DNA from: Actinomycetota bacterium
GTDB taxonomy: Bacteria > Actinomycetota > Thermoleophilia > Gaiellales > Gaiellaceae
Assembly (NCBI GenBank): GCA_003161615.1
Contig: PMOB01000016.1
Span: 1 to 64,000, forward strand
Reading direction: 5' to 3'
Length of the DNA: 64,000 bases
The position numbers and the translations under genes were made by a program. Below, piece after piece: positions 55,891 through 64,000 of this stretch. Numbering within the stretch: position 1 is the first letter of the stretch; each line of letters starts with the position of its first letter. A model generated the notes under the pieces. The model was not told the DNA's origin and searched no databases. It was given only the letters and a program-made list of their open reading frames with translations.

Positions 55891-56589
55891 ATGCGCGTCG
55901 GGGGGAAACTCCTACTTGTAGTTCTGGCGGTCGCCGCGGCTGGCGTCCTGATCGGCCTGTACGCGTGGCGCCTCACCTACCTCGCCGGCTCGCCCGCCTA
56001 CAAGCTCCCGGTCAAGACCGCCAACGGCCATCAAGTCGTCGACCTGAAGATCATGACGGTCGCGGCAATCGGGCCGAAGCTGAGCCAGAACCCCGACTGG
56101 GTCTCCTACCTCGTCCAGACGCCGAAAGGCTGGAAGCGCGAGACCGTCTGGGATCTGCCGGCGAACGCGACGATCAACGTCACGATCTACAACTTCGACG
56201 GGCAGAGCGGACTGCGGAACCCGCTCTACGGAAAGATGGTCGGCGTCACCGCCGGCGCGAGCGGCGCCTCCAACCAGATCCTCCTCAACGGCAAGCCGAC
56301 CACGGAAATCGATCCGGCGACGGCTTCGCACGTGTTCGCGGTGCCGGACCTCGGCATCGACGTCGCCATCCGCGGCGTCGACGACAACGCGAAGAACCAG
56401 TGCGGCTTCGCCCCGTGCCAGATGCAGAACGCGCACGAGACGATCACGTTCACGTTCCACACGACGACGCCGGGCCATTTCCGCTGGCAGTGCTTCGTGC
56501 CGTGCGCCGCCGGCTGGATCGACGGCTGGGGCGGGCCGATGCAGACAATCGGCTACATGGACGGCTTCCTCAACGTGAAGGCGGCCTAG
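55891..56589 (+). CDS. membrane-anchored COX2-like cupredoxin with altered CuA site
   Basis: 232 residues: one N-terminal helix (~7-26) then a cupredoxin domain. It has the CuA-type HVFAVPDLGIDVAIRG strand (His147) and the Cys pair CFVPC (Cys201, Cys205), but the His expected four residues after the second Cys is Trp209 and the Met is displaced (Met217). A second Cys pair CGFAPC (171-176) is additional. It therefore looks like a relative of oxidase subunit II with a rebuilt or lost copper site. First gene of the oxidase cluster, stop directly followed by ctaC; probably an electron-transfer or copper-delivery partner. The exact role is unknown. Confidence 0.8.
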   Translation: MRVGGKLLLVVLAVAAAGVLIGLYAWRLTYLAGSPAYKLPVKTANGHQVVDLKIMTVAAIGPKLSQNPDWVSYLVQTPKGWKRETVWDLPANATINVTIYNFDGQSGLRNPLYGKMVGVTAGASGASNQILLNGKPTTEIDPATASHVFAVPDLGIDVAIRGVDDNAKNQCGFAPCQMQNAHETITFTFHTTTPGHFRWQCFVPCAAGWIDGWGGPMQTIGYMDGFLNVKAA

Positions 56590-57450
56590 GTGGCGGCGGA
56601 GCCCATGGCAGCCAGACCGAGCGACGGCGTCAGCCACGGCCGCCGCGTCATCACCGCGTGGCTCGTCGTCAGCGCGATCGCCACCCCGCTCGTCGTCGTT
56701 CTCGTCGGCCCGCTCCTGCCGCCCGGCAACGCCAGCACGCAGGCGTCGCAGCAGGTCATCGACAACACCGTGATCACCGGGATCGTCACCCCGGTCGTCT
56801 GCCTCATCTTCGTCTTCTTTGTCTACGCGCTCCTCAACTTCCGCGCCCCGAAAGGCGGAGCCCTCGTCGATGGCCCGCCGCTGCGGAACCACGCCGGCAT
56901 CCAGATCGCGTGGATGGTGATCACCTCGGTCACCGTCCTCTTCCTGGCCGGCTTCGGCACGTACGAGCTGCTTCAGAACGGCGCCGGCGGCGGCCAGGGG
57001 CCGTCGCCCGTGGCAGTGCCGGGCGGCAAGAAGATCGCGGTTCAGGTCATCGCCCAGCAGTGGGAGTTCACGTATCGCTATCCCGGCTTCGGCGGCTTCG
57101 AGTCGCACGAGCTCGTGCTGCCTGAGGACACATACGTCGTCCTCCACGTCACCTCGCTCGACGTCGTCCACTCGTTCTGGGCGTACGAGCTCGGCGTCAA
57201 GGCCGACGCGAACCCGCGCGTCGACAACGTCGCCTTCGTCCGGACGAAAGCGCCCGGTATGTTCCAGGTCCGCTGCGCCGAGCTCTGCGGCCTCTGGCAC
57301 GGCTACATGTACAACAACGGCCACGTCGTCTCGGCTGACCAGTTCCATGCGTGGGTCAAGTCGCAGCAGGCGCTGTACAAGCCGATCGCCAAGTACCTGC
57401 CGGGCTTCCGCCGCGAATACCTTCCTGCCCCGGTGAGGAGAGGAGGCTGA
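56590..57450 (+). CDS. ctaC: cytochrome c oxidase subunit II
   Basis: 286 residues, GTG start. Two membrane helices (~22-42 and ~64-85, a third hydrophobic stretch ~104-124) then the CuA domain: QQWEFTYRYP (~157), VVHSFW (His194), and CAELCGLWHGYM with Cys229, Cys233, His237, Met240, all CuA ligands present. There is no C-terminal cytochrome c domain, so this is not a caa3-type subunit; electrons come from a separate carrier. One base from the ctaD start. Confidence 0.95.
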   Translation: MAAEPMAARPSDGVSHGRRVITAWLVVSAIATPLVVVLVGPLLPPGNASTQASQQVIDNTVITGIVTPVVCLIFVFFVYALLNFRAPKGGALVDGPPLRNHAGIQIAWMVITSVTVLFLAGFGTYELLQNGAGGGQGPSPVAVPGGKKIAVQVIAQQWEFTYRYPGFGGFESHELVLPEDTYVVLHVTSLDVVHSFWAYELGVKADANPRVDNVAFVRTKAPGMFQVRCAELCGLWHGYMYNNGHVVSADQFHAWVKSQQALYKPIAKYLPGFRREYLPAPVRRGG

Positions 57451-57451
57451 G

Positions 57452-59317
57452 TTGGCCGCCGCGCGTCGCCTGATCGGCTTCAACCTGCTGACCGCGATCG
57501 TGCTCGGGATCGGTGGTTGGTACGCGGGCTGGTTCGGCGCCCATGCGATCACCGGCCCGAGCCTCGACTGGTTCAGCGCTGCCGACTACAACGAGGTCTC
57601 GGTCTTCATGGCCTACATCGGCGGCGTGATCGGCTTTCTCGCCGGCCTCGGCTTCCTCAACTACCCGTTCGCGCGGCTACGGGGCTATCCGCCGTCGCTG
57701 CGCGAGAAGGAGACCGGCGGCTGGTCGCGCTACTTCAGCCTCTGCACCGACCACAAGGTCGTCGGCATCCAGTACCTGTGGGGAATCGGGCTGTTCTTCT
57801 TCATCGGCGGCCTGAACGCGATGCTCATCCGCACCGAGCTGCTACGGCCCGCCCACCAGGTCTTCCCGGCCGGCACGTACCTGACGATCGTCGGCATGCA
57901 CGGCACGATGATGATGGGGATGATGTCGAGCGGGATCCTCGGCCCGTTCGCCAACTACTTCGTCCCCATCCTGATCGGCGCGCGGCGGATGGCCTTCCCC
58001 CGCATCGAAGCGCTGACCTTCTGGCTGCTGATGGCGGCCGGAGGGATCCTGACGACGACGATCTTCTTCGGCGGCTTCCCCACCGGCTGGACGGGCTATC
58101 CGCCGCTCGAGTCGCAGGCCAACGCGGGGATGGACTGCTACATCCTCTTCTTCGCGCTCGTCGGGATCTCGATGACCCTGCTCGGCCTGAACATGATCGC
58201 GACGATCCTGACGATGCGCGCGCCGGGCCTGACGTGGACTCGGCTGCCGATCTTCGTCTGGGGGGTCATCTCCACCGCGTCGCTCATGGTGCTCGCGGCG
58301 CCGGTGCTCATCGCGACGCTCGGCATGGCCGCATTCGACCGCGCCATCAACACGACATTCTTCGTGGCAGGAGGTGGTGGCTCGAACTACCTCTACCAGA
58401 ACCTCTTCTGGGTCTTCGGCCATCCGGAGGTCTATATCCTCGCGCTGCCCGGCTTCGCGATCGTGCTCGAGTTGCTGCCGGTCTTCTCCCGCAAGCCGCT
58501 CTGGGGCTACCGGCTCGCCGTCGCAGGGCTGCTCGGCGTGACGCTCCTCTCGTGGATGGTCTGGCAGCACCACCTCTTCGTGAGCGGCATCAACGGCGAC
58601 CTGCGTCCCTTCTACATGCTCTCGACCGAGCTGATCTCGATCCCGACAGGCTTCACGTTCATCTGCGGGATGATGACCATCTGGCGCGGGCAGATCCGTT
58701 TCACGGTGCCGATGCTCTTCTGCCTCGCGTGGTTCTTCAACTTCCTGCTCGGCGGTCTCTCGGGCGTCTTCCTCTCCGACGTTCCGAGCGACGTGACGAC
58801 GCACGGCAGCTTCTTCTCGATGGCCCACTTCCATTACACGATCATGGGCGGGCTGATCTTCACGTTCTTCGCCGCGGTCTACTACTGGGTGCCGAAGATG
58901 ACCGGCTGGCAGCTGAACGAGCGGCTCGGGAAGATCCACTTCTGGACGATGTTCGTCTTCTTCAACTCGACGTTCGCGCCCCTCTTCGCGCTGGGCTTCA
59001 TGGGGATGCCGCGCCGCGTCGTCACGTACGACCCCAGCTTCCAGTTCCTCAACGACTGGGTCTCGGTCTCGGCCTTCCTCCTGGGGATCTCGATGCTGGT
59101 CTTCCTCTTCAACCTCGTCTGGTCGCTGGCGTTCAAGAAGGTTCCGGCGGAGGCGAACCCGTGGGGATCGCGGTCGATCGAGTTCCAGCTGCCGTCCCCG
59201 GTGCCCGTCCACAACTTCGACCGCATCCCGGTCTTCACCGATGATCCGTACGGCTACGGCGAAGGGCCCGCGCCGCAGTGGGTCGTTCCGGCCGGCGCAC
59301 CGGCGGGGAGGGAGTGA
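57452..59317 (+). CDS. ctaD: cytochrome c oxidase subunit I, N-terminally extended and with altered proton channels
   Basis: 621 residues, TTG start. Residues 1-75 add two membrane helices before the normal beginning (GGWSRYFSLCTDHKVVGIQYL ~89). Heme/copper ligands are complete: His150, His324, His373, His374, His459, His461; the cross-linked Tyr is Tyr328 in FGHPEVY with Glu326. The D-channel entry Asp (GAPDMAFPRxN in A-type oxidases) is Arg179 in GARRMAFPRIEAL and the Asn is Glu186. The K-channel Lys (PTGxK) is Thr402 in SIPTGFTFICG. So it reduces oxygen by ligand set, but pumping by the standard paths is doubtful. Confidence 0.95.
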   Translation: MAAARRLIGFNLLTAIVLGIGGWYAGWFGAHAITGPSLDWFSAADYNEVSVFMAYIGGVIGFLAGLGFLNYPFARLRGYPPSLREKETGGWSRYFSLCTDHKVVGIQYLWGIGLFFFIGGLNAMLIRTELLRPAHQVFPAGTYLTIVGMHGTMMMGMMSSGILGPFANYFVPILIGARRMAFPRIEALTFWLLMAAGGILTTTIFFGGFPTGWTGYPPLESQANAGMDCYILFFALVGISMTLLGLNMIATILTMRAPGLTWTRLPIFVWGVISTASLMVLAAPVLIATLGMAAFDRAINTTFFVAGGGGSNYLYQNLFWVFGHPEVYILALPGFAIVLELLPVFSRKPLWGYRLAVAGLLGVTLLSWMVWQHHLFVSGINGDLRPFYMLSTELISIPTGFTFICGMMTIWRGQIRFTVPMLFCLAWFFNFLLGGLSGVFLSDVPSDVTTHGSFFSMAHFHYTIMGGLIFTFFAAVYYWVPKMTGWQLNERLGKIHFWTMFVFFNSTFAPLFALGFMGMPRRVVTYDPSFQFLNDWVSVSAFLLGISMLVFLFNLVWSLAFKKVPAEANPWGSRSIEFQLPSPVPVHNFDRIPVFTDDPYGYGEGPAPQWVVPAGAPAGRE

Positions 59318-59318
59318 C

Positions 59319-60011
59319 GTGAGCGCAGAGCTGGCGAGCGGCGACGCAGGCTACGAGGTTCTCGAGGGCGAGCCGCCGGAGGTGCTCGCGCGCAACCTCG
59401 TCACGGCCGGGTACCTACTCGCGGGCGCGACGGCGTTCTTCTTCGTCGCCTTCGTCTTCGCGTTCTTCTATCTCCGCTCGATCGACAGCGTTTCGCAGTG
59501 GAAGCCGCACGGCGTGGACGCGTCGATCGGCTGGGGGACGGCGATCATCGCCTGCTGGGTCGTGAGCACGGTGCTCGTTCGGCTCGGCGAGCTCGACCAG
59601 GCCGCCGACCGGCGTCCGCAGTGGCGGCTGAAGGGACTCGCCGCGCTCCTGCTCGGGCTCGCCGGTCTCGTCCTCCAGGTCGTCGCCTGGACCCAGAACG
59701 GGTTCGGGCCGACCGACGGCGCCTTCGCGAGCGTCTACGTCGGTTGGACAGCGTTCCTGTCTCTCTTCGTCCTTCTCACGCTCTTCTGGCTCGAGACGAC
59801 GCTCGCAACCTCCTGGCGCTACCGAAACGAGCTGTTCGGCGCCGCCGAGGTGCCCGCCGGCCACGCCTCGGGCGACCCTGACCGGACCGCCCACGACATC
59901 CGCAACCCGGTCGACCTGAACCGCGCCGAGCTCGCCGCGCTCGGCTTCTACTGGACGTTCCTCGCCGGCGTCGCCGTCGTCGCCTGGGTCATCCTCTACC
60001 TGGTCGCCTAG
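59319..60011 (+). CDS. ctaE: cytochrome c oxidase subunit III-like
   Basis: 230 residues from GTG 59319-59321, one base after the ctaD stop. About five membrane helices (~28-52, 70-90, 105-125, 140-165, 205-228), fewer than the seven of classical subunit III, with a charged loop (ASGDPDRTAHDIRNPVDLNRAEL) before the last helix. ARNLVTAGYLLAGATAFFFVAF and YLRSIDSVSQWKPHG mark it as the actinobacterial/short type. It forms the oxidase core with CtaC and CtaD. Confidence 0.88.
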   Translation: MSAELASGDAGYEVLEGEPPEVLARNLVTAGYLLAGATAFFFVAFVFAFFYLRSIDSVSQWKPHGVDASIGWGTAIIACWVVSTVLVRLGELDQAADRRPQWRLKGLAALLLGLAGLVLQVVAWTQNGFGPTDGAFASVYVGWTAFLSLFVLLTLFWLETTLATSWRYRNELFGAAEVPAGHASGDPDRTAHDIRNPVDLNRAELAALGFYWTFLAGVAVVAWVILYLVA

Positions 60012-60017
60012 ACCGCC

Positions 60018-60836
60018 ATGTCCGTCCCGCCGCTCGTCTTCTGCGTCGTGGCGGCAACGCTCTACGCCCTCGGCGGCCGTGGCAGGCACCGCTGGATGAG
60101 GGAGATCTGCTTCTACCTCGGGATCGCGACGTTGTTCGTGGTGCTCGAGCCGCCGTTCGACGACTGGGCAGACACGTCGTTCGCGATGCACATGACCCAG
60201 CACGTCTTCCTGCTCACGGTCGCACCGCCGCTGCTCGTGCTCGGCCGGCCGTGGCCAAGGATGTGGATGCCGTTCCCCGCCGCCGCACGCCGGAGCGTCG
60301 CGCGCGGTCTGGCGCTCGGCGGCTGGTCAGCACCGTTGCGACTCGCGGCTCGGACACTGACCCGGCCGCCGGTCTCGGTTTCCGTCCTCACTGTGGTTCT
60401 CGTCGTCTGGCACATCCCCTGGATGTACGGGGCGGCGGTCGTCCACGAGAGCGTCCACCTGCTCGAGCACACGTGCTTCATCGCCGCCGCTTTGCTGTTC
60501 TGGGGGCCCCTCCTCGACGCGCCGCCCGTGCGCTCGCGCCTCGACCATTTGCGCCGGGCCGGCTGGTTCGTCGCCGCAAGCGTCCCCGGCTGGATCCTCG
60601 CCATCGTGCTCGCCTATGCGCACCATCCGCTGTACCCGGTCTACGCAACGCTCCACCACCGCGCCTTCGGTCTCACGCCGCTCGGCGACCAGGAGCTCGC
60701 GGCCGGGATCATGTGGGTGCCCGGTTCGCTCGCCTACGTCATCGCTGCATTCATCGCCTTCTACCGCTGGCTCGCGCCGACCGCCGCTGACCTGCCGACG
60801 GCCGAGCCCCGACCCGAGGAGCTTTCATGGACCTGA
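60018..60836 (+). CDS. ctaG: CtaG-like cytochrome c oxidase assembly protein
   Basis: 272 residues, about seven membrane helices, of the caa3-type CtaG family (unrelated to Cox11). Conserved histidine/metal-like motifs: FAMHMTQHVFLLTVAPPLL (~55), VWHIPWMYGAAVVHESVHLLEH (split, ~130-150) and YAHHPLYPVY (~200). Thought to help copper insertion into the oxidase. Six bases after ctaE. Confidence 0.9.
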   Translation: MSVPPLVFCVVAATLYALGGRGRHRWMREICFYLGIATLFVVLEPPFDDWADTSFAMHMTQHVFLLTVAPPLLVLGRPWPRMWMPFPAAARRSVARGLALGGWSAPLRLAARTLTRPPVSVSVLTVVLVVWHIPWMYGAAVVHESVHLLEHTCFIAAALLFWGPLLDAPPVRSRLDHLRRAGWFVAASVPGWILAIVLAYAHHPLYPVYATLHHRAFGLTPLGDQELAAGIMWVPGSLAYVIAAFIAFYRWLAPTAADLPTAEPRPEELSWT

Positions 60837-60953: not shown

Positions 60954-61394
60954 CTATCCCTGAAGATCGACGACCGAGGGCTTGCCGCGCCGGACGACCT
61001 TGAGCACGTCCCACATCCGAGCGCCCTCGTGGCCCGGCACGAGGCAGGCGAAGCGGAAGACGCCGGTCCTCGTCGCGCGGAAGGAGAACGTCGCAGTCTT
61101 TCCCGGTGCCAGGCCGGTCTTCGGCTGCGGCGTCGCGGCGCCGCGGAAGGCGGGCTTCGTCGACGTCGCGCCGGAGACGACCGCGCACGAATGGCGCAGA
61201 GGCCCGCGGTTCTTGCAGACGACCCGCACGGTCCAGCCGCGCGGCACCGTCCACATCAGCTCCCGCGAATAGCCGTCGAAGTTGAAGCCGTTGTTCGCCC
61301 CGTCGTATGCGGCGATCAGCGTCACGGTCGCCGTGTGGGCGCGGGCGTCCACGCGGAGGAAGTGTGCGGGCGGCGGAGGGGGCGCAGCGATCAC
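60954..61394 (-). CDS. sulfocyanin-like blue copper protein
   Basis: 146 residues from GTG 61392-61394. The whole domain matches sulfocyanin/rusticyanin-like cupredoxins: NGFNFDGYSRELMWTVPRGW (35-54), GPLRHSCAVV (His68), TKPAFRGAATP (79-89), and RFACLVPGHEGARMWDVLKV with Cys117, His122 and Met127: a complete type-1 copper site. I see no signal peptide or membrane anchor in frame upstream, which is odd for this family. It converges on the oxidase genes (13-base gap to the 37-residue peptide), so it may be the soluble donor to CtaC. Confidence 0.8.
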   Translation of the reverse strand: MIAAPPPPPAHFLRVDARAHTATVTLIAAYDGANNGFNFDGYSRELMWTVPRGWTVRVVCKNRGPLRHSCAVVSGATSTKPAFRGAATPQPKTGLAPGKTATFSFRATRTGVFRFACLVPGHEGARMWDVLKVVRRGKPSVVDLQG

Positions 61395-61435
61395 CCCCGT
61401 AGCATCGCAGAGCGAAGCGGCAGGCGGAAGCTCGC

Positions 61436-61894
61436 CTAGGCGGACGCGGCGGGCTCGATCGCGGCCCAGCCGTACGACTCCGCCGCGGGCTCCGCGGCAG
61501 GAGCTGCGGCGGAGACGGGCGGCACGCCGGCGGGCACGTACGGCGGCACTGCGGCGACCGGCGTCTTCGTCTCCTCCACCTCCGCGGCGCGCGCGAGAGT
61601 CGAGCGCTCGAACTGGAGCTGATGCTGGGCAAGCTCGGCCTGGAGGCGCAACCCCATCGCCCGCGTCGTGCCGAGCGAGCGGCCGAGGACGCAGCCTGCA
61701 ACGGCGCCGAGAACGACGAGGAGGTACGCGTGGCGATGGTGAAGCGGCCAGTTCGCCCACGACGTGAGCATCACCGAGCCGAGGATGCCGCCGAGGACTG
61801 CGCCCCCGACTGTCCAGCGCAGGACGATGCCGCCGGCCCTGCGCCAGAGATACTCGGCATAGCGATGAAAGACGGCTGCGTCGCGCTCGTCCAC
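61436..61894 (-). CDS. two-helix membrane protein with Ala/Pro-rich tail, unknown
   Basis: 152 residues: cytosolic N-terminus, helices ~22-45 (GGIVLRWTVGGAVLGGILGSVML) and ~56-72, an amphipathic helix ~75-105, then a low-complexity tail rich in Ala, Pro, Val and Glu (~105-152). I do not recognise a family. Upstream of, and same direction as, the sulfocyanin-like gene with 41 bases between; a membrane anchor for that copper protein is a speculation. Confidence 0.6.
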   Translation of the reverse strand: MDERDAAVFHRYAEYLWRRAGGIVLRWTVGGAVLGGILGSVMLTSWANWPLHHRHAYLLVVLGAVAGCVLGRSLGTTRAMGLRLQAELAQHQLQFERSTLARAAEVEETKTPVAAVPPYVPAGVPPVSAAAPAAEPAAESYGWAAIEPAASA

Positions 61895-63203: not shown

Positions 63204-63806
63204 CTACTCGAAGATCTTCCAGCGGCCGTGATGCCGCTTCGCCCAGTCCTCGCGCACGGTCCCCAGCACCATGCCGTGCAGCGCATGCCGGGTCGCAGGA
63301 TGGATCAGCGTGAGGTAGAGGTGGCCGAGCAGCAGGACGAGCGAGATGTAGAGGAGCCCGTCGTGGAGGAGCACGGTGCTGGCGAAGCGGAAACGCGTGT
63401 CCTGCTCCCCGGCCCAGAGCAGCAGTCCCGAGACGAGGAAGAGGATCACGAACGCCGCCGTGAGAATGGCGTTGAGCTTTTGGCCGGCGTTGAAGCGGTC
63501 CTGCTCGCGCGGCCGGCGCCCGCGCAGCCAGTTGACGTCCTCCCGCTCGAACACGTCGAGCTCGCGCGCCAGCCTCAGCATCCCGCGGCGGTCGCCGAGC
63601 AGCACGATCAGGATGAGCGCCGCCACCCAGCCGATTCCGCCCCAGAAGTGAATGTTCTTGATCAGCGGCCGCCGCCCGACGTCCACCGAGAGCGAGGGCA
63701 GGTAGAGGATCAGCCCGGTCGTGAGAAGGAGGAAGAATCCCGTCGCATTCACCCAGTGGAGCGTCCGCTCGGTGCGCGAGAAACGCCGGATGTAGCCGGG
63801 CTTCAC
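63204..63806 (-). CDS. membrane cytochrome b (formate dehydrogenase gamma / b561 type)
   Basis: 200 residues from GTG 63804-63806 (VKPGYIRRFSRTERTLHWVNATGF), overlapping the stop of the molybdoenzyme gene (GTGA). Four membrane helices with heme-ligand histidines: RTLHWVNATG, IHFWGGIGW, LLHDGLLYISLVLLLGHLY and LIHPATRHALHGM. Family members carry two b hemes and exchange electrons with quinone. Overlap with a sulfite-oxidase-like gene suggests the two form one membrane-bound redox enzyme. Confidence 0.88.
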   Translation of the reverse strand: MKPGYIRRFSRTERTLHWVNATGFFLLLTTGLILYLPSLSVDVGRRPLIKNIHFWGGIGWVAALILIVLLGDRRGMLRLARELDVFEREDVNWLRGRRPREQDRFNAGQKLNAILTAAFVILFLVSGLLLWAGEQDTRFRFASTVLLHDGLLYISLVLLLGHLYLTLIHPATRHALHGMVLGTVREDWAKRHHGRWKIFE

Positions 63807-64000
63807 GAGTAGTAGCCGTTGGAGCGGCCGACCCAGGCGTCCCGGTCGTAGCCGAGCAGCTCCCAGTAGCCGTTCCCCGGCTTGGGGACGAGGTTGATCT
63901 CCTCGACCCACTTGACGTTCTTGTAGCCGTACATGTCGGGGATCACGACCCGGACGGGCGCGCCGTGCTCCTGCAGGAGCGGCTTGCCGTCCATCTCCCA
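63803..64000 (-). CDS. molybdopterin oxidoreductase (sulfite oxidase/MsrP-like), partial at right edge
   Basis: Only the C-terminal 65 residues are inside the window; the gene starts beyond base 64000. WEMDGKPLLQEHGAPVRVVI, then DMYGYKNVKWVEEI and GYWELLGYDRDAWVG are the typical end of the oxidoreductase molybdopterin-binding domain (YedY/MsrP, sulfite oxidase group). Coupled by overlap to the cytochrome b gene, which would act as its membrane partner, as MsrQ does for MsrP although that partner is of a different family. Substrate unknown. Confidence 0.88.
   Translation of the reverse strand, partial: WEMDGKPLLQEHGAPVRVVIPDMYGYKNVKWVEEINLVPKPGNGYWELLGYDRDAWVGRSNGYYS

Follow-up and report, generated by a model that had tools for sequence, protein, structure and literature searches.

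A family A heme-copper oxidase lineage with a dismantled K channel and a relocated D-channel carboxylate

The gene ctaD from the window (the whole 64,000 nt stretch of DNA analysed, to which all coordinates refer) encodes subunit I of a family A heme-copper oxygen reductase (57452–59317, + strand; assigned by COX1 PF00115, alignment and model). It belongs to a lineage in which the K channel is dismantled as a unit and the D entrance is relocated, not lost, with its single carboxylate shifted seven residues inward, from position 124 to position 131. These channel changes are a lineage trait and not a local oddity of one CtaD. From the sequence patterns, our preferred reading, to which we assign a probability of roughly 0.55, is that a family A (aa3-type) oxidase may have turned into a one-channel enzyme, fed through a modified D channel by E186. 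The observation made in a preliminary description of this DNA stands, with one correction to its interpretation: the D entrance moved and is not missing. The variant oxidase is a natural counterpart of the changes that biochemists engineer to study proton pumping, in a little-known branch spanning two phyla.

The ctaD ORF starts with TTG, codes for 621 aa and matches COX1 (PF00115) with 417.7 bits. Its AlphaFold2 model (pLDDT 89.3) superposes on subunit I of R. sphaeroides and P. denitrificans with an rmsd of 1.1–1.4 Å (TM up to 0.92 of target), so that the alignment is firm, as had been claimed; likewise, the spacings Glu326-His373 (47) and His374-Thr402 (28) match those of classical enzymes exactly. 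A register shift behind the channel changes is ruled out by this superposition and by the gap-free motifs, and a sequencing error or pseudogene by the presence of the same state in 88 relatives. The secondary structure of the model indicates two additional N-terminal transmembrane helices (residues 12–31 and 48–66; 57485–57649, + strand). With subunit I of P. denitrificans (Pd, sequence of 1ar1) as the reference for numbering, the alignment equates R179 with Pd D124, E186 with N131, T402 with K354 and L339 with S291, and bears out the three changed entry residues (Arg179, Glu186, Thr402) of the preliminary description. Further equivalences are T399 with T351, E326 with E278, Y328 with Y280, N168 with N113, N247 with N199, T189 with S134, and Y108 with Y35. 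The heme and copper ligands, also as described, are all kept (H150, H324, H373, H374, H459 and H461; R521/R522 are present too), as are the channel-top Glu (E278) and the cross-linked Tyr (Y280), which align with E326-V-Y328 (58427–58435, + strand). By phylogeny, fold, heme/CuB ligands and the helix VI Tyr, CtaD is a family A member of the heme-copper superfamily.

The K channel has lost K354, S291 and the subunit II residue E78. In the alignment, T402 (58655–58657, + strand) occupies the position of the K-channel Lys, K354, which in the clade defined by E186 is Ile, Leu, Thr or Val, and Lys in 0/89 proteins. L339-E340 (58466–58471, + strand) align with S291-H292, and the K-channel Ser is replaced in the clade mostly by Leu and otherwise by another non-Ser residue. 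In subunit II, CtaC has Q105 (codon 56902–56904, + strand) where Pd has E78, the Glu at the entrance of the K channel. This position was compared in two sets of proteins, with one gapped row per set and one misplaced clade protein in the first set put aside. Glu occurs there in the canonical proteins (38 and 41), but in no protein of the E186 clade (56 and 39), where Gln or some other residue takes its place; among 26 K-less proteins that have D124, a single one has Glu. The joint loss of these residues from two subunits indicates that the K channel as such was given up. On this point the claim that the oxidase is without either entrance holds, and more strongly than it was made, with Lys, Ser and subunit II Glu absent together.

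For the D channel the same claim largely fails, as E186 replaces D124. R178-R179 (57983–57988, + strand) align with P123-D124, the latter being the D-channel entrance Asp, and E186 (58007–58009, + strand) aligns with N131 as a relocated D-channel carboxylate. D124 is absent from 89/89 clade members, where it is substituted by R, K, G or N, and in each of the 89 position 178, position 179 or both are basic; position 131 is Glu in 89/89 clade members and Asn in all 128 other proteins. The variable replacement of D124, while N131 is invariably Glu, indicates that the Glu is the selected element. Within the entrance segment D124 is the sole acid lost and E186 the sole acid gained, so one carboxylate is retained. 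Higher in the channel, Y35 (88/89), N113 (85/89), N199 (89/89) and E278 (89/89) are conserved in the clade, as is Y280 (89/89); S193, one of the two upper-channel serines, is Met in most members. The invariance of E186 in place of D124, together with the conservation of most upper-channel residues, speaks for a D entrance that has moved, not one that has vanished. The preliminary description had allowed for an acid displaced along the helix that serves the same entrance, and E186, two helical turns inward and invariant in the clade, is largely such a residue.

The changes are common to related Thermoleophilia, as the preliminary description had proposed to check, and extend well beyond them. 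We assembled 217 non-redundant COX1 sequences from a scan of genome contigs and from searches in Thermoleophilia, Actinomycetota, Acidimicrobiaceae, Chloroflexota and Pseudomonadota. Only three states were found at D124/N131/K354, with no mixtures: D/N/K (101 proteins), D/N/not-K (27) and not-D/E/not-K (89). The last group, from Actinomycetota and Chloroflexota, forms a single clade with 99% support, and on a tree built with the trait columns masked the state of N131 switches once. Because the K-less proteins that still have D124 and N131 adjoin the E186 clade in the tree, whose root is not fixed, the loss of K probably preceded the change of the D entrance. These K-less proteins (L202-L218, L121-L127, L134, L135), from Chloroflexota and Actinomycetota, make up a broader branch that has no K channel, and some have Ala at E278 (HPAVY). 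A separate COX1 from a Burkholderiales-labelled MAG (L160) keeps D124/N131 and has Gln at K354 (IPSTIQVF), an independent K-channel change. Four clade members (L015, L016, L020, L037) come from Acidobacteriota-, Gemmatimonadota- or Burkholderiales-labelled bins and lie amid actinobacterial sequences; they are probably mis-binned or mislabelled contigs. Pseudomonadota were rejected as a source of the variant, the best 30 matches from 398 genomes being all D/N/K, and plasmid records gave no match above 60% identity, the best matches listed being 40–44% identical.

The operon has the conserved gene order CUP1-CtaC-CtaD-CtaE, followed in the window by ctaG. CUP1 (55891–56589, + strand; from model and synteny) is a membrane-anchored cupredoxin-fold protein; where the flank of a clade locus is long enough, its gene is almost always found ahead of ctaC. 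We found no family for it in Pfam or NCBIfam, and the nearest fold to its model is, weakly, that of rusticyanin. It has invariant H147, C201-x3-C205 and M217 plus a further, largely conserved Cys pair; the C-x3-C is like that of CuA, but without the subsequent His, and the protein lacks the His/Cys/His/Met ligand pattern of AcoP from A. ferrooxidans. CtaC (56590–57450, + strand) is, by its sequence, a subunit II whose CuA motif is complete and which carries no cytochrome c fusion. CtaE (59241–60011, + strand) is a very divergent subunit III, with a COX3 score of 15.8 bits, below the 23.8 cut-off; the listed ORF overlaps ctaD, and GTG at 59319 is a likelier start. In classical enzymes, subunit III adjoins the D-channel mouth. 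The assembly factor CtaG (60018–60836, + strand) matches PF09678 with 170.9 bits. Two further redox loci lie nearby: a sulfocyanin-like (SoxE, PF06525) cupredoxin (60954–61760, − strand), conserved in the nearest relatives, and, at and just past the window edge, a pair of cytochrome b561 and molybdopterin oxidoreductase (Oxidored_molyb) (63204–63911, − strand, and L250:3804-4511).

The same genome encodes two other A-type COX1 proteins that retain D, N and K; ahead of each lies a gene for a subunit II in which a CxxCH motif marks a fused cytochrome c domain. CtaD from the window is thus a third, additional A-type oxidase. In Acidimicrobiaceae, to which Ferrithrix thermotolerans belongs, a match in the score range of the E186 clade occurs in 28 of 42 genomes, and 26 of these 28 also have a second A-type COX1. 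The Acidimicrobiaceae are a family of iron oxidisers. Iron-grown Acidimicrobium and Ferrimicrobium have a-type cytochromes (PMC5143472). Given these cytochromes, the Acidimicrobiaceae carriers and the neighbouring CUP1, a link of the variant oxidase to high-potential donors is plausible. Many carriers are soil Thermoleophilia, for which we know of no iron metabolism.

In the one-channel reading, E186, at a basic mouth lined with Arg/Lys, would collect protons for O2 reduction. These would then move via N113/N199 and waters, first to E326 and from there to the active site; the protons normally delivered by the K channel would take this path too. E393 and S396 in TM VIII would compensate charge in place of K354, and pumping would reach at most one proton per electron, plausibly less, which would suit high-potential copper-protein donors. 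The strict joint states among the 217 COX1, the single change at N131, the retention of E278/Y280, the one carboxylate kept at the D entrance, the distribution of the subunit II Glu, the behaviour of the classical mutants and the conserved operon order count for this reading; against it, S193 is mostly Met in the clade, and the Arg/Lys at 178/179 could form a pair with E186 that blocks it. By analogy with engineered enzymes, where N131D decouples and loss of D124 together with N131D reportedly recouples, pumping of the variant would be reduced or uncertain. In classical enzymes, D91N stops uptake and K319M stops the reductive phase, N98D retains O2 reduction with loss of pumping and restores a step that the Lys mutant lacks, and the classical example of decoupling is N131D, with normal O2 reduction and no pumping (PMC10194837, PMC12901375).

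Other residues that mark these proteins bear on where protons might enter. E393 and S396 (TM VIII, motif TELISIPTG; 58628–58639, + strand) align as polar residues new in K-less proteins, and a further segment (58739–58807, + strand) has gained N430, S442 and D443 and has G452 in place of the Mg-site Asp, D404. Alignment A2 shows no variation at E393, S396 and D443, which track the loss of the K channel rather than that of the D entrance. G452 marks the E186 clade as well as roughly half of the remaining K-less proteins. The helix limits of the model place D443 at the P-side end of TM IX and E393 about one third down TM VIII. This distribution and topology, with the loss of D404, would also fit an unlikely alternative, by analogy with the cytochrome c-dependent NO reductases, in which the K-channel proton or all chemical protons come from outside via E393, S396, N430 and D443, with little energy conserved; such an enzyme would have no need for E278 and the D channel, yet E278 and most of that channel are conserved. 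Next to the CuB ligand H373, Q372 (58565–58567, + strand) aligns with A324, a position that is Gln in 88/89 clade members and Ala in 101/101 canonical proteins, with one Gln exception outside the clade. Given the changes in the Mg-site Asp and in this CuB neighbour, the exit side of the variant oxidase may work differently too, a further point against the one-channel reading.

It is also conceivable, if doubtful, that a salt bridge between E186 and R178/R179 closes the D entrance and that protons use another route from the N side, for instance through E340 at the bottom of TM VI. Basic residues at 178/179 and Glu or Asp at 340 occur in 89/89 clade members, but a basic residue at 178 is also seen in canonical and K-less proteins with D124, E340 is common in canonical enzymes (66/101), and the residues above the putative plug stay conserved. 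Quite unlikely, in turn, is a full pump, in which moving the carboxylate from 124 to 131 would restore coupling and the enzyme would pump like any A-type oxidase. The natural change affects the same pair of positions as the R. sphaeroides double mutant D132N/N139D, in which Branden et al. in 2006 are said to have found that the enzyme pumps again with the entrance Asp gone; however, the K channel is gone here too, residue 131 is Glu instead of Asp, and residue 124 is Arg instead of Asn. As a long shot, the whole K-less family A branch might draw on the P side for its K-channel proton(s), via D443, N430, E393 and S396 toward T399/Tyr280, with the subclade of the window later rewriting its D entrance; these would be the first A-type oxidases with mixed-sided uptake or uptake of reduced electrogenicity, tuned to high-potential donors. 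A NO reductase-like member (eNOR and kin) instead of an oxygen reductase, which the unusual Q372 near CuB and the cupredoxin partner might suggest, is very improbable with Tyr280 kept in 89/89 proteins and all CuB ligands present.

This is a natural, stable lineage with no K channel and a carboxylate at the decoupling position, which directly tests the need for two inputs and for the mouth Asp in O2 reduction and pumping. It also hints at a way in which oxidases may adjust to donors from which little energy is left to drive a pump. The published definition of type A rests on the very residues absent from it. By channel residues, type A has D124, N131, N113, N199, Y35, S134, S193 and E278 in the D channel and K354, T351, S291 and Y280 in the K channel (Sousa 2011, PMC3084760). 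CtaD falls outside type A so defined, for both channels. In the clade D124 and N131 are absent and S193 is mostly Met, the rest of the D set being largely kept; of the K set T351 and Y280 are kept, and K354 and S291 are lost together with the subunit II entrance Glu. Among 1216 sequences surveyed in 2011, only four lacked the channel residues of their own type, all of them assigned to type B (PMC3084760). CtaD does not belong to type B (ba3), which has Thr, Ser and Tyr at K354, T351 and S291 where CtaD has Thr, Thr and Leu and the clade mostly Ile, Thr and Leu; its match to ba3 is weak. Type C (cbb3), with a Tyr in helix VII and none in helix VI, is ruled out by Tyr280, kept in 89/89, and CcoN is at most a remote profile match. 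The same Tyr excludes eNOR, defined by Gln in place of the cross-linked helix VI Tyr (PMC8756737).

With the canonical A1 oxidases (Paracoccus, Rhodobacter, mycobacterial aa3) CtaD shares the fold, the ligands, E278, Y280, most of the upper D channel and a CuA subunit II; it differs in lacking K354, S291, D124 and subunit II E78, in having Glu at N131 and Gly at D404, and in its two extra N-terminal helices. The mutants N131D (Paracoccus, 3ehb) and N139D (Rhodobacter) have a carboxylate at the same channel-neck position but retain D124 and the K channel, whereas CtaD has Glu there and neither of the two. The main text of Degli Esposti et al. (2021, PMC8239418) describes a "2TM" COX1 lineage, with two extra N-terminal TM helices and linked to iron oxidisers, and the paper also notes that archaeal family A lost the K channel repeatedly. 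As far as that main text goes, CtaD has the two helices in common with the "2TM" lineage, both have carriers in Acidimicrobiaceae, and the move of the carboxylate from D124 to N131 is absent from it. Finally, the rus operon of A. ferrooxidans is arranged as cup-coxB-coxA-coxC (PMC2754497) and, as in the operon of CtaD, a cupredoxin gene immediately precedes coxB-coxA-coxC, the likeness being one of gene order.
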